Shown here piece after piece: positions 13,012 to 60,280 of a DNA stretch of 64,000 bases (position 1 is the stretch's first letter; the number at the start of each line of letters is the position of its first letter). The notes under the pieces were generated by a model that saw only the letters and a list, made by a program, of their open reading frames with translations, searched no databases and was not told where the DNA came from. This DNA comes from Paramacrobiotus metropolitanus. Taxonomy: Eukaryota; Tardigrada; Eutardigrada; Parachela; Macrobiotidae. A program made the translations under genes and the position numbers. The stretch spans positions 930,001 to 994,000 of the forward strand of contig NW_026570255.1 in assembly GCF_019649055.1 (NCBI RefSeq), given 5' to 3'.

Positions 13012-13666
13012 TATACTTGTATTCTTCCATGCACAATTTATCGAAATACTAAGCCTCAGGTACAGAGTATGTGTTCGTGGTATAACGTGTCCGGGACTAC
13101 CGCGAAGAAAACCGAGGTACCAGACACAGGGCACGGATCACTGCCGTCTCGAACAGCTCCGACTAAGAGGCTCCAAAAATTTAACGTGTTTGTAAAGGTT
13201 TGGCCACAAGCTGATTTTCTGAGGGCATACTCAAGGAAAAATTATCAGACACGGCTTAGCATACCTCCCTTTATGGAAATAATTAATAGGAAATATCCAA
13301 CGATTGTCGATAAAAGACTTAAGAAACACGGATTTATTCGCTTCATTTTACCACAAATTGCAATTTAAAACTGTTGTCCGCAATATGTCCAAGAGATCGG
13401 CAGCTCAACTTTCTAACTGTGCAGAACCAACAAAAGGTTAACAATTTATTTATCCCTCATCAAGCGTGGATGGTTTCATATTATGGCATTATTCAGTTGC
13501 TGGCAGTTTTCCGCATTGACGCCAATCGACATTTTCTTTGGTGTAGATATCAAACTGGGCCACTGCAGACCCAGAGAGAAACTCCCCCTATATATGTAGT
13601 AATCAGGTAAGCAAATCAAGCGACTTTAATCAAGTAAGCAACCAATTTTTGTTATATGAATACTGA

Positions 13667-13960
13667 TTATCTGTGCCAGGACTTCGGCCCCTGTCCTTTG
13701 AGGCAAAGGATCTCGGCTTCTACTTCACCAATTTTGTTGCTTTAAAGTACATCAAAATTCACTAGCTGTAGCGGTGGATCCAAGATTGTTGACTTTTTGC
13801 CAAAATCATTTGTCTTGGTCCAGTGGTCAATCATAAGCTTGTAACCATGGACGCGATAAGAAATGCACACTGTTCTAACACAACTTGACCCAGAACAGTA
13901 GAAATATCTGAGCTGCTGCTTAACAATAAGTACGAGTACAGTACAAAGTAAAAAATACAT
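13667..13960 (-). pseudogene. Decayed Ly6-like paralogue
   Basis: The minus strand reads MYFLLCTVLVLIVKQ, a good signal peptide ending like those of genes A and B. It continues without an intron into YFYCSGSSC, resembling CYSCSGTSQSC of gene A, and stops at 13742. Just downstream, in another frame, EVEAEILCL (about 13700-13735) resembles EAEVLMC of gene A. Cysteines are missing and no canonical donor is seen, so it looks like a degenerate copy. A divergent functional gene with unrecognised introns remains possible. Confidence 0.4.
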
Positions 13961-14176
13961 GTACAGTAACTTAACACGTTAGTCATAATCGCGTCAGTCA
14001 TCATTGCAAGTTATGTAATTTATGTACAAGTAAACAGTCCGTGTTTCGATTAAGTAACTTATGTAAAGTGTATCATAATACTACTAAACATACGTACGGG
14101 TTTATTAATATTACGACAGTCTGTAAGCGACCGCAAATCAACACATCCTTGGAGTTACTTGTTTTTAATAGTCATC

Positions 14177-14202
14177 AGCCAATATTCATCCGTGCTGGGC
14201 TT
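14177..14202 (-). repeat. Inverted fragment of repeat U
   Basis: This 26-base stretch is nearly the reverse complement of the first bases of the U copy that starts at 14444 (AAGCCCAGCACGGATGAATA). The two lie about 240 bases apart in inverted orientation. Confidence 0.6.
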
Positions 14203-14443
14203 TAATAGGTTTAACGTGCTCCAGACCGTAGAGTGATACCGTACTAATTATTGTCCATGAGAATTTAGTACTTAGGCGTTTACACATACAGTACAGTACT
14301 TGTACTTTGGTTGACGGAATTAACGAGGGTTATGCTTGAGAAAAAGGCCGTGACGAGATTGTGTTCAAAATATGACATGCTTAAGTGCTTCCTTATCTAG
14401 TTATTATGTCGTCTAAATTGTAGCTACGTCAAATAATACAATA

Positions 14444-14880
14444 CAAGCCCAGCACGGATGAATAATGTCTTAGGATTTCGAGCATGTAAAAAGGTTAACT
14501 GTATATGTATTAAATAATGGCACGATGTCTATTACATTAAGGAGGCACGAACAAAATAAACAGGCGTGAGCAGTACCTGTTATTTTGTTTATTCGCAGTT
14601 CGCTAATTTCAATGGCAATTCGATATAATAACACATAGTAACAATCTGGGGATTTACAGTTAGCCCATGTTAAGCTAATGGCCACCATGGTAACAAGCTT
14701 TTGAGTGACCACTGGACTGTGGGTAGTGGGCTTTCCAGAAAATTGATGATGCAGGAACACTCTCGACACTGAGAGGATTCTGTAGCACTTTAGAGCGTGC
14801 AGATTGGATGTGTGGAACGGGAGAAAATTGGTTACAACGGCAAAGTGTCGAGGATCCTGGTTACGTAGTTAGTATTCATA
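14444..14880 (+). repeat. Repeat U, divergent single copy
   Basis: The copy starts CAAGCCCAGCACGGATGAAT and ends AGTATTCATA. It shares with the copies at 48481 and 58793-60280 the block CCCATGTTAAGC..GGTAACAAGCTTTTGAGTGACCACTG and the ends. It lacks an ORF of its own. A Helitron 3' end follows after TAA at 14884. Confidence 0.65.
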
Positions 14881-14883
14881 TAA

Positions 14884-15525
14884 CCAGTTTACGGGATCTA
14901 CATCCGTACACAAACTTTTGCGGCGCAAGTTTGTTACGAAATGCACACTTCGCATCGGTTGAGCGCATTGGTCCCAGCCGCTAAGAAAACTACGAAATTT
15001 AAGAAAGAGAAAATCTAAGAAAACTTGGGAAACCCTAAGAAAGCCTAAGAAACCTAAGAAACCTAAGAATACCTAAGAAACCTAAGAAGCCTAAGAAACC
15101 TAAGAAACCTAAGAAAACCTAAAAAACCTAAGAAACCTAAGATATCTAAGAAATATCGTATATGAAAGAATACGAGGTATACCGATCACGCTGGTGGTAT
15201 TGACTGCGATTAATTTTTGCACATGTTTCTTAAATTTTCAATACTTTGTAACGTGCCGATGCCGAGGCCGCGGTCTGTCTCGGTTTTTCCGAACGGTCCG
15301 CGAACAGACAATGCATTTACCATGTATGTCTATGTGGGCCCATGGCAACAATTTGTTTTTTGGGGCTACTCCTTCCCTTTTGGGGCGTATCGATGGCGCA
15401 ATAGCGTAAGAACATTCGCGCCGTTGAGACGAATTTAACGCACTTGGCCGCGTCGAAATCGGTTCAGCCGTTCGCCCAAACATTGGCTACATTATCAATC
15501 GTGTATACGTGGTTACGGATGTAGA
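14884..15525 (-). mobile_element. Non-autonomous Helitron, copy 1
   Basis: On the minus strand this 642-bp element begins TCTACATCCGTAACC after an A and ends with CCCGTAAACTGG before a T. A 5-bp hairpin (TACGG..CCGTA) lies just before the last six bases. Both ends match the autonomous element at 49076-58789. It also shares that element's CTAAGAAA array (here 14985-15165) and the roughly 200-bp 5' terminal region (15310-15525). It has no coding capacity, so it would depend on transposase in trans. Confidence 0.75.
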
Positions 15526-15528
15526 TAA

Positions 15529-16055
15529 CCAGTTTACGGAGGACTACATCCGTACCCAGTTTTGGGGCGCATTTGTTTCAAAAATATTGTGGAAAGAAAA
15601 CGTAAGAAAATATAACAAACATAACGTCGTTGCGGCGATTCTGCCATTTTTGACCGCGTCAAAATCTGCCTACCCGTTCAGCCAAACATTGCTTTTTTAG
15701 GTTTGAACGTCACGTTGTTACGGTACAGTTCTGTGGTATTTTTCCTAATAATTTTCGAGCCGAGGCCGAGAGGACCGATCTGCCGTGCAAATAATGCTCA
15801 TGCAACCCGTGTGCCTATACTTTATGTTAACCGGTTTGGAGCGAGGTCGGAAGGCGAGACTTGCAGGCCCATGGCAACAATTTGTTTTTTGAGTTTCGTG
15901 CTCCCCCCTTGAGGCGCATCGGGTCGGCAATAGCGCAACATCACCCGCTTCGTTGCGACGATTCTGGCGCACTTTACCGCGTCAAAATCGGCCTACCCGT
16001 TCGTCCAAACATAATTTTCTTAGCAAAGGCCGTCATGGCTGTTACGGATGTAGTT
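15529..16055 (-). mobile_element. Non-autonomous Helitron, degenerate tandem copy
   Basis: Only TAA separates this copy from copy 1. Its 3' end (minus strand) keeps the hairpin GTACGGATGTAG..CTCCGTA and the terminal AACTGG. Its 5' end is the eroded GTTACGGATGTAGTTAA at 16041-16055. Inside, the 5'-terminal region appears once well preserved (about 15870-16055) and once as a fragment (about 15620-15700). The block is therefore probably two head-to-tail copies that have decayed. Confidence 0.6.
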
Positions 16056-17287
16056 AATTACAATACTAAAGACTTGATCCAGAGAGCGAGTACTGATTAT
16101 TCCTGCCTGCTGTTATTGTTGTTATTGTGTTTGCACGAATATATTGCGTAGTCCTTACGAAGTTACGATAACGATTGCTCCAACGCATGAAAATCGGTAC
16201 TTCCTAATCGTCAAGGCAACAAACTAAAGAAATTATTCAGGAATTATTAACAAAATTATTATTAAAATTATTAGCAAAATTATTCAGGAACATAACAGTA
16301 CAGTAACGGTTCTTGCAAGCAATGTAAACAAAGGTTGCAACCACGAACAACGGCTTCTGCCTGGCAGCCTAGAAAGTCGCTCCCAGAAAAACCTGCCACC
16401 GGAATTACATTTTCATTGCAATTATTCCTGTACGAGTATCCGTTTTATGCTATGCTGCGACTCACCACCGAACGAGGCCCACGCTGCACGCACTGATCGA
16501 ATTACTTCTAATCAAAGCATAAAATTTTTTGAAGGCTGCGTATTTTCAAGAAAGTTCATTTCACCGCTTCTAAAATTCGTGAAAATATGCGGAGGATCGA
16601 TTTCAACGAAAAGCACGCGTCAAATATGCAAGGGAAAGTTAATAAAACACTCGCAATGCGCCATCTCCTAGCTGGACTCAGCGCCTCAAATTTCGTGCGG
16701 TTCATTTGTTTGACGAAGCCATTTGCTCAACCTGCAAACGCTGCGCAAAATTCACTGTGAGGTGCCAAAAGGACCATCCGACCAGAAGACTGCGGGCGGG
16801 GCTAGTGAAAAATCCATTCTCCTTGTTGTTCCGACAGGCGTCGGCCCAGAATAAACGCCAAACATGAGCGGACGACCGCAAGGGAAAGAAAGGGCACAGG
16901 TGGACCACTGAACAGATAGATAAATTATACGAGATAGATTATCGTAATTAGATAGATAGATTATCGTAATTTTTACGGAACGTCGGTTAGAGATAGGTGC
17001 TTCTGTTGTAACCGTATGCCTTTACACCAGCTTGCGGAAGACCATCTGTTACCATGACGGGCATTTTTGTATTTGTTTTAATTTTATAGCAATAACATTG
17101 CGCTGTCAGAGATTACAGTTGGTACTTCAAAGGAACAGCATCAATGCAAATAACCTCACATAAATGAAATGCGTAGTGCGAAACTTGCAATTACTTATTT
17201 CTGTCAGCCAAAAACAACAGCTCCACGCCCGACAGGCTAAAGATACGGTCAGGAATTCCTCGTTACTTGGTGTCATTGGCGTGCACG
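16056..17287. other. Intergenic, GATA microsatellite
   Basis: No gene is recognised. A short GATA/AGATAGATT-type microsatellite lies at about 16912-16975. ATTATTAACAAAATTATT-type words repeat near 16240-16290. Confidence 0.4.
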
Positions 17288-46445: not shown

Positions 46446-48480
46446 CCTTCAATTGAAGTCGTTGAGTCGTACGATTACTGAAGCGCAGCAATTCGAAGAC
46501 ACACGCAAGCGGACGTTTATGCACTGGTTTCTTTAGAAAAGGCCATGGTTCCTAAATATCGTTTCATCAGGAGAGCCGTTTACAAGGATTACATGATTGC
46601 GTTAGGAAATTAGTGAAGCTGTTTTTCTTTGCACTTTATGCATTATTGTAGCCGGTGCCGTTCGCGGTCTGTTTTGCGGTAAAGTATGCGATTGCTCATA
46701 TGGAAAGCGATCAAACGTTGCAACTGCCTGCACCCCGAAATACATTTCAGGATATACAAAAGTAAGCAGAAATAACGTAGTGACAACTTGAAATTATGGT
46801 CGTATTGATAAATCCAAGAAATATACTCAGAAGTATTTCTCTCAGAACGGTAAAAACTTGCTGCGCGTAATTTGCCGCTGTAATCCGCCATATCGTTGAC
46901 GGAAATTCGTCGACCGTCACTAATGGTAAGTCGAACAGACAAAATGCTGAGCCGTCACAAATTAAGAAGTCACGATGCCGACGCAATGCCTTTGGGGTGC
47001 CTTTGACCTGTGACATAAAAGGTGGCGCCAAGCGGTGCGGAACTACATAAACGTGACCATACGTAAATTATACGCGCAAGGCGCAACAGCCGTTACCCCT
47101 GTTTGCACAGAAAATAGTACGAAGCCTTGTAAACCGGACGTTCCAAAAGTCTGCTTCCCTTCTGAACATGGAACATAATTGGACTCTTAACTTTTTGGCA
47201 TACAAATACATCGGCATACAAATTTTGAAAGAGAGGCGTCCAAAATTATTTGTGAGCGATGTCAGGAAGAGATTGGTTTAAAATTTCGTCCGGGCGAAAA
47301 TAAAAGATTTCTTACATGTACACGAGTTTTGTACCATGTACCGGGCCACTTTCCTTAAGTTGTACCTTTTATACTAGTGGAACAAGCAATAATTTTAATA
47401 AAATGAAAATATTCGGTTTATAACAAGCGTTTGGCTGATTATTATTTCTTCCGGAATTTTAAAGACGCAGTTATTGCGAAAGACTTAGTGCATTGTTGCA
47501 CGAAATTATTACAGTGTAATCGACTGAATCGAGGCGAAGGCCTTCTGTGTTCAAGAAAACAGGGCTTTCTGTCACGTCGATCACGCACAGATAAATTATA
47601 GCGCAATCGTTGTCGTCCAGAACCACTTCGTAAACTACCATCAACATTATACTCTGTTTGCTCCTTTTGCGCTACCTTCCATTTAGCACTATAGTGCACT
47701 ATAGCACTAAGGTAGTGCACTATAGTGCACTGCCTTTTCGGCACTCCCTATTTCATTCGGTAATTTACCTTTGACACTACCACTTGTTCGGTGTCCTAGC
47801 ACTGATTTTTTCGCTCATCATGACGCAGAAGATTCAAAGTAATAGCTGGTTCGATCTCCAATCCACCCCATGTTTCATGGGGGAAAGGCCGGCCTACTGT
47901 AGATAAGCCGATTTATTATTTACGCAGGCGGACATAGTAAGTGTACGTAAAGTACTGAAAATAAAGTGCTGCATATAAAAAACTTAAAGAAAGTACTTAT
48001 TGTATACTACTGTAAATACCTATATAACTTATGCTGACCATTCCGTACAGTACACTACCTTTCCTCAATGGAGGGCTGGATTGCCCCTGCGTCAATGATT
48101 ACGCCCCACTGGAAGTGCGGTACAAATTACACTAACTAACTAGCTTAAATAATTTATTTTATTTTATTATTTATTATTTAATTTTTATTTATTATTATTT
48201 TACTTAATTTATTTACTGTGTTTATTTTATTTCATTGTGACTTGTTGTGTGCTACGGCCTACGAGTCATGACTTGGCCGTGCGCCTCGAATGTTTGGGAG
48301 CACCCATTTCACCTTGGCTTTTTATGGTAGTCTCGAAGTCACAATATTTTTTATTATCCTTAATTTTGTTGCGGTAATTTTTCTTTGTCATTACAAATTT
48401 CCCAGCAGTTTCGAATTTCTCGTTGCGTATTCCTAATGTACTTACTTAACAAGGATTATTATGAATGAAATGTTACTGTA
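46446..48480. other. Intergenic region
   Basis: No supported gene. A perfect short repeat of CACTATAGTGCACTA words occurs at 47690-47735. AT-rich TTATTTATT runs occur at 48150-48235. A minus frame at 46643-46942 has no further support. Confidence 0.4.
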
Positions 48481-49075
48481 CAAGCTGAGCGCGGATGAAT
48501 ATTGGCTTACGACTATTTAAAATTACGTCATATCTTGGATTACGTCGTCATGTGTTGGATTGCGGTGCAAAGTCATAATGGCAGAGCCAGACAGCTATTT
48601 ATTCAGGATGGTTGCCTGCAGTGAGAATCGTGAAGTATTGCCCTTTTGTCCCTTAAGTTTTTTGGTTCATCGCTCAGCTGCTAAGTTTCTACTTATTCTA
48701 CTGAATTCTACTGAATCTGAGAAGCTAATGTAGTGGCTTATCAGTGGGCGAAGTGATTTGTTAACTGTTCACTCACCCAGGGAGCACAAGAAACACAGAG
48801 GCGAAGCCAAAAATTTTTCTGGTTCAAATTTATCATGCCCGTGGCAACAGAGCTGCCCATGTTAGCCCTATGGCATCCATGGTAACAAGCTTTCCAGTGA
48901 CCGCTGGGCCTACCGCGACCGCGATGGCGAAAGGTCAAGAGTCTAAGAACACTCCCCGCACTGGGAGGATTCTTGTGCAATTTGAAGCAGAAAAATCGAT
49001 TGAGTAGAAGCGGAGATCACGCGTTACAATCAGGAGAGGCCGAAGGTCTGCAAGAGATGTTTAGTATTCATATAA
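48481..49075 (+). repeat. Repeat U, long divergent copy
   Basis: It starts CAAGCTGAGCGCGGATGAAT and ends AGTATTCATATAA. It keeps the nested palindrome (CAAGAAACACAGAGGCGAAGCC at 48786) and the GGCATCCATGGTAACAAGCTT block. It abuts the 3' end of the autonomous Helitron at 49076. Confidence 0.7.
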
Positions 49076-49101
49076 CCAGTTTACGGGATCTACATCCGTA
49101 C
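49076..49101 (-). other. Helitron 3' terminus with hairpin
   Basis: On the minus strand, TACGG, nine loop bases, CCGTA, then AACTGG. The same hairpin with a changed loop is found at 14884 and 15529. In rolling-circle elements such a hairpin marks the end of strand transfer. Confidence 0.75.
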
Positions 49102-49466
49102 GTATTATCGCGGCGTACTTCAATTTCGAAAGTTAAATGTACACACGTCTATTATTCTTCCGGCTAAAACACAGTACAGTAAAGAAAACGTTTAGCTATC
49201 TCATCGGCATGTATGCTGAAATGTTATCGGATCGGCAATTCCGCAGTTATTTTAGATGCTAAGAAAGCTATAATTATTAATAGAATAGATGTGAAAAAAT
49301 GAGATTATTCTTCCGGCTTGGACACAGTATATTAAAAAAAGGCACAGTTATCGGATCGGCGTTTATGCTGAAATTAGTGGTAATAATATGAGGAGGTTGT
49401 GTAGCTTTCTGAAAATTCGGTATCGGTTTCCTGATTTAGTTCGTGTACGTAAAATCATATATGGTA

Positions 49467-51935
49467 TTATGTAGATCGCTTTGATGAGCTTGGATCCGGT
49501 GTTGGAGGTCTTTTCCTTTGTGTTGTGTTTTCCGGGCATTCGAGCTCGTCGTCTATGAAACCCACAGAGATTGCCCATGTGAGAAGTGTTTGTGCTTGAC
49601 CAGTCAATGAAATACGGAAAAAGGTTTTTTTCCACTGGGTTTGGAGAGTTTTGTACTTGTCGTTGTATACAATACCGCTGAAGTAGACAGGTTTCGACAT
49701 GTAATCATGATCAAAGTATTCGGCCTAAACAAAAGTAAATATGGTACTAAATACAAAATTAAATAAGTAACTAAGTATGAAACTTACTAAATGGCCCCAC
49801 AAGGTGATTGGTGTGGAGCATTCTTGATCACGAATCGTGATATTTCTCATGAACTTTGTTCGTCCGCTAAAAATTTTTTCCTGCTTTTCCTGAATTTTTT
49901 CGACAATTCCGATGTAGTCTGTTCCGAAGAAAATGTATTTTTGAAGATAAAAATGCATAGCACAAGGATGAATATGAAGTTTTATTTTTGTAGGGGTACT
50001 GTCATTATCAAAACTTCGTAGGGAAAATTTGGAAACTGTACGTGCACAAGTAAACTATTTATAGAAATTATGGAATTTCGCGGACTGCGCGGCCAACAGT
50101 TCGAAATTATTATTATTTTTCAAAGAACAGTACAACCTGCTGCGTAGCAGTTACCGAGTATATGGTGAAGCGTGATTTAGAAATACTTGTATAGAAGAAT
50201 AGAAAATACTATATAGAAGTATGCAATTAGTAAAGGTTTCATACACATGCTAGTGCCGATCGGTACAGAGTGTACTGTATGCAGTGCCTTGCCGCTTGCC
50301 AGGATTGACCATAAGAGTTTTAGTTCTGTTTATGAATTCTGGCATTGTGATTACTATTAAGCGGTACCTTTAAAAATTCAATTTAAATCGTACTTTTTAA
50401 AATGGAAATTGCGGTAAAGTACGGTTTATGTGTCGTGACATTTAATAACGGCATTGACATTTAGTTATGTTTATCGATTATCGGTTTATGCATCTTTCCT
50501 TTAATAACGGCACTAAATAATTTTTGCGGGTTGCATTTTTTCGCACATGGATCGGGAGTTGCGCTTATTATGGGGAGTGCGCTTATTGCCGGAGGTGCTA
50601 CAAATTTGATCATTACGGTATATGAATACTGATGCATAACAAAGACATGTGTTACTTACTTTTGGACAAGGATTTGAATGCTTCAGTTGACGAATCAGCT
50701 AACTTGGATAGCGCAGATTTGGGTACTGATATTTCTGTACATCGTTCGATAACAGTCTTCTCGGTAATATAGAGGTTCGCATCTTCCGTCGAGTCAAAGC
50801 GGAAACTGTCATTTATGCGCTTTAGGTCGTACTTGGTGAAGACGTATGTCTGAAATTATTCGAGAATTGTTTTTCAAAAAAATGGTGTAAGAATATTGGT
50901 GTATAATGTAATGTTGTAAGAGTGAGGTACTTGTCCGATTTTCATTTGGTCGAATTTGTTGACTTGGTTGCCGAATGCGGTTACAATAATACTTCCTGTA
51001 TTATCCGCAAACATACACGAGCGAGACATTCCGAAGCTGCTGGTAGCATGGGGAGGCATTTTGAACACAACCGTCAGTTTAGTTGGGCTGTAACGGTAAT
51101 CGATTAGTATGTAAATTATGTAAAGTATGTACAGCTGTGTTTAAGTCTTAGATAGATTAATTTATTAGAGCGGAAATTAGGTATAGTAGGTTAAAATCAG
51201 TATAGGTATGCGTTTGATAATTATCTAAGGCTTATAAGCGTACGTTGGATGTTCGGAGACTGCGGTTGTAGTTGAATCATTAAAATAGGATCCGGCCGCT
51301 TTTGCCGTTAAAACCGTAGTTTTGGGTGGAATTTTCAGGTCTTTAATGAGCCTTTTAGGTTCGTCCGACTCCAGGATTTCAAAAGCAGTAATTGTTAATC
51401 GATAACTGCAATATTACTAAGGTGTAGTAGCGTGTTAACAAAGGTAGAAGAATTAAAGTAGCAATTAGTAATACTACTGACGGAACTCACTCATTTTGGG
51501 TTCCAAACGACATGGAATTTGTCACCTTCATGTAGGTCAGTTCGATACGTGAAGATTCCGATAAGACATCCTTTTTGATCTTCACATCTATAGAAGGTTT
51601 TTGTAAATTGCTGATGCTGTACACGGGAATTTACACGGGCTTTGGCGATGTAAACGCCTAACTACGTGCAGGGAGCGAAAGGTTGTCGTGCATAGCATTC
51701 GTGTGGACTCAAAAAGGTGACTTGTACATGTAGTTATTGCTGCAATGCACGCGGATATAATGATGAGTGTAATGGTGTTCTTACTGGATAATTGAGTGTG
51801 TCCATCGTTGATTGTGAGATGAGTCCAATTTCCTTTTGTAGTTGTGGTGACAATTTGGAAGACGGTGTTCGCGGGTGGTGGTGTCCCTTTCTCACAAATT
51901 TGTCGAATGATTCCGGGTGTTAATTGTTTTGACAT
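49467..51935 (-). CDS. Helitron-encoded RPA70-like ssDNA-binding protein
   Basis: Relative of replication protein A large subunit, expected to coat single-stranded DNA during rolling-circle transposition. Seven exons join in phase: 51935-51785, 51587-51491, 51405-51244, 51087-50931, 50849-50660, 49918-49788 and 49724-49467, giving 381 residues. Residues 1-110 match RPA70N (MSKQLTPGIIRQICEKG.., DGHTQLSS, LTITAFEIL). About 137-240 is a DBD-A-type OB fold (GSIIVTAFGNQVNKF, TKYDLKRIND). About 252-345 is a DBD-B-type OB fold (GRTKFMRNITIRD, TPITLWGHL). The C-terminal tail is basic and Pro/Ser-rich. The zinc-binding DBD-C of cellular RPA70 is absent. It lies about 450 bases downstream of the Rep/Helicase stop on the same strand and inside the element's ends. 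A full RPA70N domain in a transposon copy is uncommon as far as I know. Confidence 0.82.
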
Positions 51936-52386
51936 TTTGAGGTGTTGTTGCGAAACTGCAAAGAAAACTGTTGATTTTAATCTGTAATAAAAACCGTTGA
52001 TTTTGGAAAAAAATGGATCAAACAGGAATGAACAGCAAGAGAAATTGTTGTTTTTAATTTGTTAATGGGACAGGATTGAAATTTAACGATGTTAATTGAC
52101 TTGTTGTTTTCTGTGACATAGCAACTATTATTTGTGCTGAGGGCAAAATGATCAATACACTATTATACTAGTACGGGTAAAGTACTGGTACGAGTATAAC
52201 ATTAATTCTGGTATTTTACCACTAATGACAATTAGCGCTACTAAATAATTCTGCTGTGACCTTTTATTATATTAAGGTTTCATTGTTATTAGCATTAGCG
52301 TATGCCCGGTAAATAAGACATACTCGGTATTGTTCGGCAAGAGAGTGCGCAACATTTCCAGTACCTTGTTAGATCACGAGGTTTCG

Positions 52387-55300
52387 TTATCGGGTGCGTT
52401 GGGTTTTCTTTGTGCAAATTGGGAACGGTAATAGAGTGTTGCTTTGAAAACATGAGATTAAGTGTTTTCGCATAAGGGCTTTATCCAAAGTTAAGTGAAC
52501 AGGATTCTGGTCAAACAGTATTGCCGTTGCAAATGCTACTGAGTATAGACCACAGTCGACGCCGTTCTCTTGTCGTTGGACGGATTGGTACTGTAGTAAT
52601 ATTTTATCCGTGGTATGTTTCTGTAGTTGCTTTTTTAGCTGCTGGACAATATCGGAATTCGGATTTTGGTCGTCAAGAGAGTCGTACACTTTGAACACGT
52701 CACCGGTTCGCAAGATTGTCTGGTAATGATTTCCGTTTGTAAAGATAATCTGAACTGCTTTATTACCGTGAGCAATGTTGCTTTGAAAATCTGGACTTTG
52801 GAAATTCGCGACGTAATCGAGTCCGGAGAAAATTTCGGTGCCGATGTTTGATCGTTGGTGATTTCGCTTTTGTAGAAGAAAAATTGCAGCGTCGATTGCA
52901 CTTATAGATAGTGCGCCTTGGTTTACGATTTCGTTGTAATCTGTAATTGACAGTTGTAATTGTTTATTCCAGTAGTTGTTGTTTGTGAATAAGTTAGCAG
53001 GCGGTAATGGCACATTCATCGGTTGCTCGGTAGTTCTAAGCGATGTAGGGCCATCATGGTCGTGGCTAGTTCCACTTCCGGTATTGAAGGTTCGTATAGT
53101 TGCGTTTTGGTTGTCGGTATCTTTTTTTCGCTTGCTCTGGTTAGATTTTATTCGTGGCAAAAAGTCGGTCTCGGATGCTGATTCGGTAGTCGCGAACATA
53201 TCTGATTGCTCAATTGATATTAGAAGGTCCAAAACCCACTGATCTATGAATATGGATTCTTCAGCAAGTCCGATAATGAATAAATTTTTAAGGCACCTGA
53301 CACGTGAAACTGCAGTGTAGAACTGACCAGTCTCGAAACACGGTTTGCGTATATCAATGATAACTTTATCCAAAGTTTGCCCTTGAATTTTGTGAATTGT
53401 CAAAGCATACGCTAATTGTAGAGGAAATTGCTCCCTGTATCCGATTATTTTGCCAAATATTTTGTAGGTATTTTTGAAGCGTGGTATGCAAAGTGTTTGG
53501 CCGGTTTGTAGCGATTTGACGGTTATGATTCTGCTGTTGTAGTCGGTAACTTGAGCAATTGTGCCGTTGTGCCATCCAGAAGTAACATCAATATTGCGTA
53601 ATAGCATGACCTTTGCTCCACGCTTTATTTTTAACAGATCCGGAAAGCGATCGCTGCACCATTTTTTAACTCGGGTTTTATCAACTTCACTCATGGGCTC
53701 TTTATTGAGTCCATAATCTTTTGCTTCGTAATTCATTTGATCTGATGGGAGAGTGGTCAGATAGCGATCGCACCATTCAATGGCCGTTTCAATGTGTGGG
53801 CATATTATTGGTACATAGTTATCGGGATCAATGATGATTTCACCGGCTGTTATTGTCCTTTCCTCCAACGACTTCTTCACGCACTCAGAGTAGCTGCCGT
53901 ATCGGAGGTGCTTCAGAACTTTTTTAAATTCCGAATCGCTTTGTCTGTGGACTGTTGACAAAGTCGTTACTTTAAATTTTGACCAATGTTTCCCTAAAAA
54001 AATTGAATGGTTTTGTCGGTCCAATGATACCGGGGGAAGTTGGGCAGGGTCACCAAGTAGGATTATAGACACGCCTCCAAAAGCTTTAAAACACTGGTTC
54101 CTCTTGTTGACCTTTTGTAATAAGCTGCTTAGTGATGTAAGGACTTCTTGAGTGACCATACTCATTTCGTCAATAATGATGACGTCTACTAGATGCGCTC
54201 TCCAATATTCTATTGTGTCTCTTTCAGTTTTATGCTTGTTATCGATTCCGATACCAAAGTATGAGTGAATTGTAGTGCCGCCAGTTATATTCGCAGCTGT
54301 GCCGGTTGGCGCAACGATGCAAACATTAACGTTGTTTGCAGATAATTGGTGATGTACGTATTTTACGATGACACTTTTTCCAGTTCCCGCGCAGCCAATA
54401 ATGGATAACAGCGTTTGTGTCCCAGCCGTAATACTGGAAATTAAGTCGGTTGCGATATCTAATTGCTTTCCCGTTGGCTCTATTGGGTGTTTTGCCGGTT
54501 TGGGGAAATATTTTTCATCGTTAATTTCTTCCCTTTCGGTTGTGGATGCAAACGAGCTTTCTGTATACATTTGTTCGATGTTTAATAACGCATCTTCGGT
54601 AGCTTCGGTAAAATCTGCAAACGTCTTTAGGCAAAGGTCAGCAAGCTCCCGTATTTTTGCGATTGATAGTCCTTTGCTTACTGCTCTGCCAAATGTGTCT
54701 TGGACAATGGATTCATCTATAAGATTTCTTATAATGCATTCCTCAAGGAACGTATTACTTGAATTATCCGGTGAAAAATAGGGTTCGTTTCGGAAAATCG
54801 GGATTTTCGACAGAAATAGTTGACGATAGAAAGTGTCGGTGTCAGTTGAATCTGGCAGTACAAATCGGAAACGTGTCACAGCGGGAACTCTCCGTTTCGT
54901 CACCTTAGTTTCTCCAGTACTGCCAATAAGTTCTCCAGAACGAATATTTTGAAGTATATTGATTGCAGGTGGACTTGTTGCATTCCAGTATCGGTTTGTT
55001 TTGTAAGATTTTAAAGTGGGCAGTTCTTCGTCTTCTGGTGGTTCATTTTGTTCTTCTTCCTGTGTTGCTGTTGTTCTGACGAGGAAGTATTGGAAAAATT
55101 CGGTGTAGGTGAGATCTCTGAGGCGTTCGTTTCGTTTCAAGTATTTTTCGAACTTTGTGTCGTAATAATCAGCATCAGTCGGTTTTTGTTGTCGATTGAA
55201 TCCTTTTCGTAGTGTTTTATACGTTGCCTCAATTTCGTCGGTTAAGTAGACGCACTGAAGAGATGATCCGTGCAAATCTTTGCTCAATAATCGTTGTGAT

Positions 55301-58182
55301 GCTTCGAGAATACCGGTAATCTTCGTGGACAAATGTTTTTGGACGGCATTTTGAAACGTTGTTCGAATTCTTAATTTGGGCTCTGATTTCGCAACATACT
55401 TCGCTAGATAAAGTTGCCATCCGTTGGAAGTTATTTTTTGCACATTTATGTGACCCTGCCAGAATAACAAAAGGTTCGGGTTGTATGGGACTATTCTTTC
55501 ATCCTGCGTTGAGAATCTTGGGTACTCGTATCGAACTTTAGTTTCGTCCAGCTTACATTCTGGGTTAGGTGTATGAAACGGGAATCCGTATTTACATTTG
55601 CTCAGCCTTTGTCCAGCAACTCCTTGGAAGCAGCGTTCAGGAGTACAGCGTTCGTGTATTTGAAACTTGAGAAGTAGCTGACGTATGTACTGAGAAAGAG
55701 CATCGTTTTCTTGTGGAAAATGCGCGTGTATTAAATTAGCTGTAGTATCCGATTCCAGCCATATGACAAGGTGGGTATGGATCGCACCTCTCTTTTGGTA
55801 CTCGTGTCTATACCAGTAACCTTTAATTGTTCCGAATGGGCTTTCGCTGCCTAGTAGGAATCTTTGCTTAAATGCGAGCCATCGTTGATGATATGCTAGA
55901 GTAACTTCAACTGGGTTATTAACAGCAACGCTTGTTGGTGTTCGTTTGATTTCGTTATATGTCTTTGCATTCGTTCCTGGTTTGTTCTCACATGAAAACT
56001 GTATTTCAGGCCACGAATCGTTTTGAGTCAGTGTGACAAAAATATGAGGTTGTCCAAGGTAGTCGGCATTTGAAATGGCAAAAATGTCGGCAGTGCAGCT
56101 AGCCCAGTAACTTGCGGATCCAATTAGTCTAGGCGGTAATTCTCTTCCATAGGGTGTATGGCTGTCGTACTCAGTATTTTCATTTTCTGGTCCATTTACC
56201 ATTTTTTTCCGGTTATTAATAAAAAATTTGTTGCACGTGAACAAATGGTTTTTTGTTTTCCGGTCCAGCTGTACAAAAATAAACATCTTGCATTTTCGGA
56301 AATTAGGACTGCGATGTAGCAACTTATTTCGGTGCCAAGTAGCCATTTTTCCATTATCTTTGTGGTATCCTCCTCTACCAAAAGGAAATAGAACGGGGAA
56401 GCACTTGCAGTCGAATTCATTGTCCGATAACTTTAAAGTAATCGATTTTGTGAATTCTGTCGTATCACTGGGGTCACGGAGAAAGCATCGGCCTACAGTA
56501 TCGGCATTTATATTTTCAAGCATTTCGTCGTTGTCGATGTACTCTGGTTCAATAAGAGCTTCCGTTTCTTCACCCAGATCATTTTCTCTAAGAAGAAATT
56601 TTCCATTTACCGTCTGAGGAGTTGCACTAATCCAAGGCCAAAGCGTTTCGGCCAGACACGCAAATCTTTCGTAGAAGGGATTATTATGTCGCAACCATTG
56701 TATTGCTGCAATAACTGAACTTGGTAAATGATGGGTCACTTCCGTGTCTGCTTGTACGATCGCTCCCAGCAGGCCTTTGTAATGTTCATCTGGATTTTTC
56801 CAGTACTGCAGGTCACCCTAAATGTGGTTTTGAACCACTGTTCATATATTATCGTTTTCCTTTTTAAAATTGTAACAGCAGCAATAGCAAATTTGGAAGA
56901 CTCTCTCTAAAAGATCATGGTAGATGTAACAGGTATAATAACCTAAGAAATGTAAGAAACCAAAGAAATCAAAGAAACCAAAGAATCCTAAGAAATCTAA
57001 GAACCTAAAAACCTTAGAAACCTAAGAAAACCAAAGAAACATCTACGAAACCTTAAAAAATCTAAAACTGAGAAAAAACGAAAGAAAACTAAGAAATGTA
57101 AGAAGTGAAAAAAATGTAAGAATTAAAATAAAAGAAAATTTGAAGAAACTTTGAATTTTAAGAAATTTAAGATGTGTACGTAATCTAAGAAAGATCTGAT
57201 CAAGAAAACAGTGTTATAATAAAAGTAAATTAACAGGGTGCCTTTATCGTTGTTTATCAGTTTTAATAATTATTTAGAATATTACTGTACTTACCTGAAA
57301 ATGTTGGTATTGTGCTCGGATTGGATCTGTTGCTTTGTAAACGCAAGAATAAATTCTTCCTAATGATAAGAGTTGGTGACTTGCTGGATTATTAACGATT
57401 TCCAGGACTTTAGGAAGTGTTACGTTTTCAGTTATGGGATCTCCATGTGGGCTGCTTTTTTGGAACGCATTAAGAGTGCTTAGACATTGGCCACAGATTT
57501 TGAATTTGGATTCTGGAGCGTTAATTTCTTCAGGGAATAAGCGATGTAGCATATACTTGCTTTTGTCTTCATCTTTTGACTGATGAATACGATCGCCTTC
57601 TACAAAATTAGATCCGCAAATTCCGCAAGTGTCTTTAAAGACATTAATCGAACAGTTCCTGAATCCATGGAACAGGCATTCCAGAAGATGTTTTTGTGAT
57701 ACCATAATAAGTTTCCATGATTCGTTTAAGATTTGTTGGTAATCGGGTAGAATTTCGTTGCAAATATGATTAAAGAAAGAAGTATATCTCCATGGTTCTC
57801 GAATCCATTTTCGTAGTTCTTTTTCGAAATCTGAGAAACGCTTTTGAATTCGGAATTTTTTCGTAAACATTTTGCGTAATGACTGTTGTTCGGCTGTTTC
57901 GAGTTCTGTAGGCTTTATTTCGTTGACCTTTTGAGTAAATCGATTTGTGGTCCGTTTGTACATAGCTTGCAGCGTTGATCTTTTTCTTAACTGATTTTGT
58001 GATGATGTTCTTTTTCTTGTTTTTCCGAGGACTTCATTTGAGCTTGATGGTCTGGCTTCGATTTCCTTCGAAACGGGATTCCTTACTTCATGTTTTTGCT
58101 TTGCACGTCTTGCTTTTCGTCGTTTTTCACTGCATATCCGTGCACTTCGTGTCTTTTTGCTCAGATTAGATTTTTTCCTCAT
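52387..58182 (-). CDS. Helitron Rep/Helicase with Ulp1-like protease
   Basis: Two exons, 58182-57295 and 56817-52387, join in phase 0 across a 477-bp intron with good sites (CAG|GTAAGT, TTTAG|G), giving 1772 residues. In order: a very basic N-terminus; a zinc-type region with CGIC (about 190-196) and CGQC; a Helitron-like N domain; a HUH-type Rep nuclease (GAIHTHLVIW near 643; two tyrosines in LYLAKYVAK near 767); a PIF1-family SF1 helicase (GCAGTGKS near 1104, DEMSMV, GDPAQLPPV, HKIQGQTLDK, AVSRV); and a C-terminal Ulp1/C48-like cysteine protease with His (NHYQTI), Asp (VYDSL) and Cys (GVDCGLY near 1717). The 3' stop is at 52387. All key residues are present. Rep nicks and transfers the strand and the helicase unwinds it; the protease role is unproven. 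Confidence 0.9.
56930..57200 (+). repeat. CTAAGAAA-type array in the Rep intron
   Basis: Degenerate array of CCTAAGAAA/CCAAAGAAA/TCTAAGAAA words filling most of the only intron of the Rep/Helicase gene. It is the same word family as at 14985-15165 and 58440-58580. Confidence 0.8.
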
Positions 58183-58439
58183 TTGAAGGTTAAAATATAA
58201 TTACCATTTTGAAAGCAATAACACTAATGATATTTCAGAATACTGACTGTGCAGATGTGTAGATGAAGAGTTAGTTTTGGTCGATGGTGTGTTAGTCTAG
58301 CGATTTGAATTAGTACTTCTAACGCATCATTAGAATAATATTATACCTTACATAATTATGTAATTATAATCGAACTATATTTCGTTGCTGTTTTTTAACG
58401 TATTGCGAGAAATACTCTAAATTTATTAGGCGAATTTTA

Positions 58440-58789
58440 GAACGAAAGAAGGAAACTTAAGAAAACCTAAGAAACCTAAGAACCCTAAGAAGACCATATA
58501 TATAAACAACACTCGAATCCTAAGAAATCTAAACAGTCGAAACACTCGAAACCTAACCGTAAGAAATCTAAGAAAACTTTGCTCATGTATGTCTATGGAG
58601 GCCCATAGCAACAAGCCGTTTTTTGGGGGTTGCCTTGCCCTCTTGAGGCGCACATTATTCGCAGTGTCCCTATGTCACTCGCGACGTTACGACGATTCCG
58701 GCGCACTTTACCGCGTTAAAATCGGACCATCTGTTCGCCCGATCATCGTGGTCGTCTGCTTAGCATGTATAAGAGGTTACGGATGTAGA
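58440..58789 (-). other. Helitron 5' terminal region
   Basis: A CTAAGAAA array (58440-58580) is followed by about 200 bp (GCTCATGTATGTCTATGGAG.. to GATGTAGA) closely similar to 15310-15525 and to about 15870-16055. It marks the 5' end recognised in rolling-circle transposition and joins the short elements to this autonomous one. Confidence 0.7.
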
Positions 58790-58792
58790 TAA

Positions 58793-60280
58793 CAAGCTGA
58801 GCACGGATGAATATTGGCTTACGACTGGGTAAATGAATCAGTTTAAAATTCATAGGTTGCAGTGTATTCGAGGAAGCAATAGCAGTTAGTATTTTGTTTG
58901 AAGCAGTTTCGTGCACAGCGGCTAATAGTCTCCTCAGAAGCTTGCAAATGAACTGAAGACGAGCTTGATCATTTGTTTGGTCCGATTTTGGACCATGAGA
59001 AACGCAGAGGCGAAGCCAAAGCTGTTTCTTGTTTGAGTACAGTATAATTGTGACCGTGGTAACAGACCAGCCCATGTGAGACCTATGGCATCCATGGTAA
59101 CAAGCTTTTGAGTGACCACTGGGATTGCGGTTCTGAATTCAACAAACAACGACTGGTCTTAGATCACCCGCCAGACTGGGAGGTTTTCAAAACATTTTGA
59201 AGCAGGAAGATCGGATGAGCAGAAGCGGAGATTACCGCGGTCTAACATGAGAGGCCAAAGACCTGCTAGAGATGTTTAGTATTCATATAACAAGCTGAGC
59301 ACGGATGAATATTGGCTTACGACTGGGTAAATGAATCAGTTTAAAATTCATAGGTTGCAGTGTATTCGAGGAAGCAATAGCAGTTAGTATTTTGTTTGAA
59401 GCAGTTTCGTGCACAGCGGCTAATAGACTCCTAAGAAGCTTGCAAATGAACTGAAGACGAGCTTGATCATTTGTTTGGTCCAATTTTGGACCACGAGAAA
59501 CGCAGAGGCGAAGCCAAAGCTGTTTCTTGTTTGAGTATACTTGTGACCGTGGTAACAGACCAGCCCATGTTAGACCTATGGCATCCATGGTAACAAGCTT
59601 TTGAGTGACCACTGGGATTGCGGTTCTGAATTCAACAAACAACGACTGGTCTTAGATCACCCGCCAGACTGGGAGGTTTTCAAAACATTTTGAAGCAGGA
59701 AGATCGGATGAGCAGAAGCGGAGATTACCGCGGTCTAACATGAGAGCCCAAAGACCTGCTAGAGATGTTTAGTATTCATATAACAAGCTGAGCACGGATG
59801 AATATTGGCTTACGACTGGGTAAATGAATAAGTTTAAAATTCATAGGTTGCAGTGTATTCGAGGAAGCAATAGCAGTTAGTATTTTGTTTGAAGCAGTTT
59901 CGTGCACAGCGGCTAATAGTCTCCTCAGAAGCTTGCAAATGAGCTGAAGACGAGCTTGATCATTTGTTTGGTCCGATTTTGGACCATGAGAAACGCAGAG
60001 GCGAAGCCAAAGCTGTTTCTTGTTTGAGTACAGTATAATTGTGACCGTGGTAACAGACCAGCCCATGTTAGACCTATGGCATCCATGGTAACAAGCTTTT
60101 GAGTGACCACTAGGATTGCGGTTCTGAATTCAACAAACAACGACTGGTCTTAGATCACCCGCCAGACTGGGAGGTTTTCAAAACATTTTGAAGCAGGAAG
60201 ATCGGATGAGCAGAAGCGGAGATTACCGCGGTCTAACATGAGAGGCCAAAGACCCGCTAGAGATGTTTAGTATTCATATA
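58793..60280 (+). repeat. Repeat U, three tandem copies
   Basis: Units 58793-59290, 59291-59783 and 59784-60280 (about 495 bp each) are nearly identical. Each begins CAAGCTGAGCACGGATGAAT and ends AGTATTCATATAA. They are joined head to tail with no extra bases. The array starts three bases beyond the Helitron 5' end. Open frames inside them are repeated identically but have no recognised domain, so they are probably not genes. Confidence 0.85.

Follow-up and report, generated by a model that had tools for sequence, protein, structure and literature searches.

The 9,717-bp element described here in the tardigrade Paramacrobiotus metropolitanus is, to judge from its sequence, an intact autonomous rolling-circle transposon of the Helitron2/Helentron (HLE2) type, TT-inserting, and it is probably the trans-acting source for the genome's E-type non-autonomous units. 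Units of this E family sit near-exclusively at the 5' termini of other Helitron-like units. We tentatively propose that the family is target-specific, integrating where other rolling-circle transposons, other families included, have their 5' terminus (replication origin), and that its mixed arrays come from repeated targeted insertion and not from read-through. Taken jointly, the HLE2 assignment, the trans-acting role and this mechanism form what we consider the best explanation, and on balance a likely one. The element occupies the minus strand, running from 58791 (5' end) to 49075 (3' end), of the window, i.e., the whole stretch of 64,000 nucleotides analysed (C35:930001-994000, within a 170-Mb genome of 533 contigs). 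The original prediction had placed an autonomous element at 49076-58789, and gene content, uninterrupted frames and definable ends agree with it; the interval was essentially right, with the ends off by two bases and one base, while the element and both of its genes had to be turned to the minus strand.

Table 1. Coordinates of the features of the window discussed in the text
Feature	Position	Strand	Remarks
Autonomous Helitron2/Helentron-type element (E family)	49075-58791	-	9,717 bp, T|T insertion
5' terminus TATCTACATCCGTAAC	58776-58791	-	holds the 5' arm of the 13-bp asymmetrical inverted repeat
3' terminus ACGGATGTAGATCCCGTAAACTGGT	49075-49099	-	holds the 3' arm of the inverted repeat
Rep/Hel exon 1	57295-58182	-	296 aa, zf-AD-like cysteine motif; open frame, GT donor
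Rep/Hel exon 2	52387-56817	-	1,476 aa: HUH Rep, Pif1 helicase, Ulp1/C48-like C-terminus
RPA70-like gene	49467-51955	-	several exons, limits approximate; downstream of Rep/Hel
Non-autonomous A-type unit, resident	48480-49074	-	595 bp; ends TATATGAATACT...CAGCTTGT; its 5' terminus is the E insertion site
Three tandem A-type units upstream of the E element	58792-60280	-	498, 493 and 498 bp (TRF, unit ends)
Second mixed array: short E (15528-16056), E (14883-15527), B (14443-14882)	14443-16056	-	end-motif scan

The limits of the element were set from unit junctions, the empty-site comparison and a near full-length copy on contig C175. Between neighbouring repeat units, the unfilled junction reads CTCAGCTTGT|TATATGAATAC (59289/59290 and 59782/59783), whereas the filled 5' end reads CTTGT|TATCTACATCC, i.e., CTCAGCTTGT|TATCTACATCC, and the filled 3' end AACTGGT|TATATGAA, which can also be written AAACTGGT|TATATGAATAC. 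The empty site deduced from these adjacent array junctions is T|T (CTTGT|TATATG), and comparison of filled with unfilled junctions thus delimits the element as given in the table, with a three-base slide. T-rich (TT-type) insertion without duplication, as in Helitron2/HLE2, is indicated by T|T at the array junctions and by a T ahead of each E 5' end read with other DNA upstream. The element also has the asymmetrical terminal inverted repeats of this group: a 13-bp repeat, ATCTACATCCGTA, is offset by 1 base at the 5' end and by 13 at the 3' end, while the longest match in 3,000 random 40-mer pairs from the window was 12 bp, with one 39-bp exception that is probably a repeat or overlapping sequence. 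Similarity to other copies extends past the two ends (65 and 53 matches), which had been named beforehand as a sign of misplaced ends; it does so because the copies adjoin the same flanking array units, and the ends are real.

Regarding gene content, Rep/Hel encodes a protein of 1,772 aa in two exons with no internal stop. Its exon 2 matches the Pfam families PIF1 (8.3e-29) and Helitron_like_N (4.2e-22) as well as the Helraiser 7lcc helicase (1.3e-30), and the HUH Rep motifs HEYQKRGAIHTH and YLAKYVAK are present together with Walker A/B, so that the element combines a two-tyrosine HUH Rep with a Pif1 helicase, as in Helitron2/HLE2. The intron is backed by a relative on C10 that is intronless, with the frame continuous across the splice point, and exon 1 is kept in a relative on C475 (54% aa). 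The Rep signature is RGAIHTH (GAIH), without the S between G and P before HxH of the strict Helentron signature, and Pfam scans of Rep/Hel found no AP-type endonuclease domain, the C-terminus being C48-like. This domain scores 20.6 bits against the C48 profile (Pfam cut-off 20.7) and its C475 homologue 25.2, over the cut-off; the catalytic H, D and C are in place, NHYQ, VYDSL and G[VT]DCG being conserved, and with the profile match supplied by the homologue we assign it to Peptidase C48 (Ulp1). An AlphaFold model of the protease domain (pLDDT 34 from two sequences) was uninformative. Five or so short exons of the second gene are conserved in C475 and, when concatenated, match human RPA70 DBD-A/B (4.7e-06) and REPA_OB_2 of Pfam (7.6e-05); the element thus carries the RPA gene expected of a strict Helentron. 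Two spliced and uninterrupted genes, Rep/Helicase/protease and RPA70-like, had been predicted, and the open frames, Pfam hits and RPA70 match support this, with the exon model of Rep/Hel corrected to two exons.

The expectation of recent relatives was also confirmed. A second full-length E copy, on C175, has two DNA blocks 98.5% and 97.8% identical to the window element, and has stops, as does the C475 relative (74% aa to the window Rep/Hel); the Rep/Hel relatives of C10, C336 and C290 (~50%) are broken or split across frames. Among the relatives detected (best candidates scored), the window copy has the sole open Rep/Hel frame. Moreover, dN/dS between the window copy and C475 is ~0.085, at a dS of 1.9 that is near saturation, and non-autonomous copies are ~95% identical to the E element at the 5' end. 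These three observations point indirectly to a possible present activity of the E element. More distant Helitron-like Rep/Hel frames, apparently open, occur at C7:153081-156110 and C148:96777-99578 and on C31, C47 and C78, so that an open frame alone is not rare in this genome.

Three unit types with defined ends, E, A and B, were distinguished. Short E copies of ~340-700 bp have the same ends as the window element; the 5' end (TAWCTACATCCGTAAC) has 227 exact matches genome-wide and the 3' pattern (3-4 base spacer allowed) 173. A units begin with TATATGAATACTNNNYATC and end with CCAATATTCATCCGTGCTCAGCTTGT, and B units, of ~440 bp, begin with TATATGAATACTAACTA.GT.AC and end with GACATTATTCATCCGTGCTGGGCTTGT; exact patterns gave 207 A 3' ends, 272 A 5' ends and 57 B 5' ends. 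All reversed-pattern controls, those of E included, gave 0. In A and B the asymmetrical repeat is offset by 3/15 bases, in E by 1/13. The 3' end of one unit meets the 5' end of the next directly at T|T, with no intervening spacer and almost always on the same strand, in mixed head-to-tail arrays, and both full-length E elements (window and C175) sit between A units, the three upstream of the window element being 97-99% identical. That B might be part of E was considered and rejected, B having its own ends and occurring without E. The second mixed array of the window has other DNA on both sides, and its E-3'|B-5' junction is exactly that seen elsewhere. Near it, a lone unit on the opposite strand (13653-14204, +) resembles A/B at its 5' end, TATATGAATACTGATTATC, and, in degenerate form, at its 3' end. 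A 9-bp microsatellite, AAACCTAAG, lies within E units and the Rep/Hel intron (56940-57065, 58452-58491 and 14981-15153 of the window). On C10, an A-family element within an array (C10:1777047-1784775; L094:848-8576) carries its own broken Rep/Hel (~51% aa to E) and RPA-like remnants, which indicates that A units once had an autonomous partner.

The position of E units was assessed by first-pass junction counts restricted to contigs C1-C26, with coordinates copied by hand. On these contigs, 46/82 E 5' ends directly abut a recognised 3' end at zero offset (23 of E and 23 of A), as do 36/97 A 5' ends; the next 3' end is that of E after an E 5' end (63:7) and that of A after an A 5' end (51:5), and 24/26 clusters are single-strand. 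An exact unit 5' pattern starts at the base following 46 of the 74 exact E 3' ends. When the remaining 28 were fetched, 26 proved to start with variant unit 5' ends (in L106 the first stretch is damaged, and in L112 the match covers only ~15 bases); in another (L098) an inverted B unit follows, its 3' end adjoining that of E, and one more (L095) could not be assigned, so that 72/74 E 3' ends on C1-C26 abut another unit's 5' terminus. A 3' ends differ from this, 13 of the 58 assessed running into other DNA (Fisher p = 9e-5). The idea that the E 3' end is a sub-part of a longer element was discarded, since it is followed by units of all three types, A, B and E, and of differing subfamilies. B units stand without E at 8/18 places. 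Across ten E+B pairs, the mean pairwise distance is 0.23 for E (max 0.39) and 0.07 for B, with three or more subfamilies for E and one for B, and a Mantel test finds no correlation between the E and B distance matrices (r = -0.17, p = 0.76). Movement of E+B as one block would give agreeing matrices; their incongruence therefore speaks against co-transposition and favours the insertion of E at resident 5' termini.

Most simply, these data would mean that different E copies inserted repeatedly, each exactly at a resident 5' terminus. In the mechanism that we propose, Rep would nick at T|T ahead of its own 5' end (TATC...), and rolling would carry on from there until the 3' end (...CTGGT); a target likewise nicked at T|T, by Rep or a relative, would then receive the displaced strand or circle. 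As a rule, this target would be a resident Helitron-like unit, at its 5' terminus (T|TATATGAATAC for A/B and T|TAWCTACATCC for E). With the host 3'-OH joining the E 5' end and the E 3' end joining the resident 5' end, the product would be host-E-resident, in one orientation and without duplication, and repeated rounds would build mixed arrays. In the prokaryotic IS91 and IS608, site preference is set by the HUH nuclease and no target is duplicated. Several observations speak against this explanation. Beyond T|TA, the 5' ends of E and of A/B have little in common, which weakens the case for common recognition by one Rep; GAIH is neither GS nor GL; and of the E 3' ends counted, one adjoins an inverted B unit and one could not be assigned. 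In addition, the full-length E of C175 (L071/L072) lies between A units 99.8% identical over 558 bp, like an A dimer split at the junction, and these flanks fit a prior A dimer but equally array amplification.

Tandem Helitrons are known from bat, silkworm, maize, rice and Drosophila and have been ascribed in part to bypassed termination, which is the usual account of such arrays (PMC4067079). Applied here, the E 3' end would be a weak terminator, copying would run on to the strong 3' end of A or B, and E would move only in E+A or E+B composites. The lack of a clear E ending in unique DNA fits this account, and homotypic A arrays, with units 97-99% identical, resemble concatemers; they may indeed be read-through concatemers, which is compatible with targeted insertion of E. 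For E itself we nevertheless regard bypass as unlikely: the trees of E and B disagree, a single B subfamily being accompanied by three or more of E, the E 3' boundary is exact to the base whether A, B or E units follow, and bypass requires an initial adjacency and does not itself produce an exact boundary. Unequal exchange or gene conversion between arrays with common unit ends could also have united the units, in place of targeted insertion. Arrays are long and mixed, junction types are roughly proportional to end frequencies (chi-square p = 0.30), and recombination between arrays could likewise reshuffle units and erase the E/B congruence. Single E+B loci within otherwise unrelated flanks (C1, C10 and C24), the near absence of homology between E and A ends and the exactness of the boundaries, however, make this origin improbable.

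Least probable is the reading of the original prediction, a classical Helitron with A|TC...CTGG|T ends and a 5-bp 3' hairpin as end signature. TC and CTGG are present near the two ends, but the two cannot be brought into a common register with the unfilled junction: the TTA common to both ends can slide, choosing 5' TC gives CTGGTTA as the 3' end, and none of the possible slides has both 5' TC and 3' CTRR, so that the label fails. The empty A-T target sites foreseen by this reading are not matched either, the array junction being T|T, and the base before the E 5' end is T in every E unit read with unique upstream DNA. Shuffled sequence folds just as well as the 3' hairpin (z = -0.03), and the hairpin was dropped as evidence for the 3' end; folding of both termini gave neither better than shuffles, and hairpins at both termini are absent from some published HLE2. 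An asymmetrical inverted repeat is present in its stead, and the Rep signature is non-diagnostic.

Compared with known systems, E shares asymmetrical terminal inverted repeats, a T-rich site and a Rep/Hel without endonuclease with Helitron2/HLE2 (Fusarium FoHeli, PMC5148889), to which it adds the RPA70-like gene, the Ulp1/C48-like domain and the near-exclusive location at resident 5' termini in mixed arrays of several end-types. Like Helentron/DINE-1/HINE elements, it has a TT target, subterminal inverted repeats (12-15 bp in these elements), an RPA gene and many short non-autonomous partners with microsatellites; unlike them, it has no matched AP-type endonuclease domain, its Rep reads GAIH and not GSPH, and its 3' repeat is 13 bases away from the terminus, against 38-60 in mite HINEs (PMC4067079). 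Of the published forms, GAIH agrees with neither that of Helentrons (GS) nor that of Helitrons (GL). Canonical Helitrons (Helraiser/Helibat, PMC5876387) share the HUH Rep and the Pif1-type helicase and are known in tandem arrays, whereas E inserts at T|T and not A|T, without the TC/CTRR register or a significant 3' hairpin. IS91 and IS608, in which the nuclease directs the choice of site without target duplication (partly PMC5876387), are a mechanistic analogy only. Fusarium FoHeli elements occur in tandem copies, and one of them is inserted 2 bp upstream of the 5' end of another (PMC5148889); in Metarhizium, a 5' end may have received a double insertion. Tandem arrays of Helitrons are known; in the open-access literature searched, we found no published family placed almost exclusively at resident 5' termini. 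How Helitron-like elements choose their targets and come to form tandem arrays has so far mostly been inferred from read-through models. The E family, with its intact enzyme copy, makes it testable whether Rep nicks resident origins as targets, and whether mixed arrays, which are satellite-like repeats, arise via targeted insertion.
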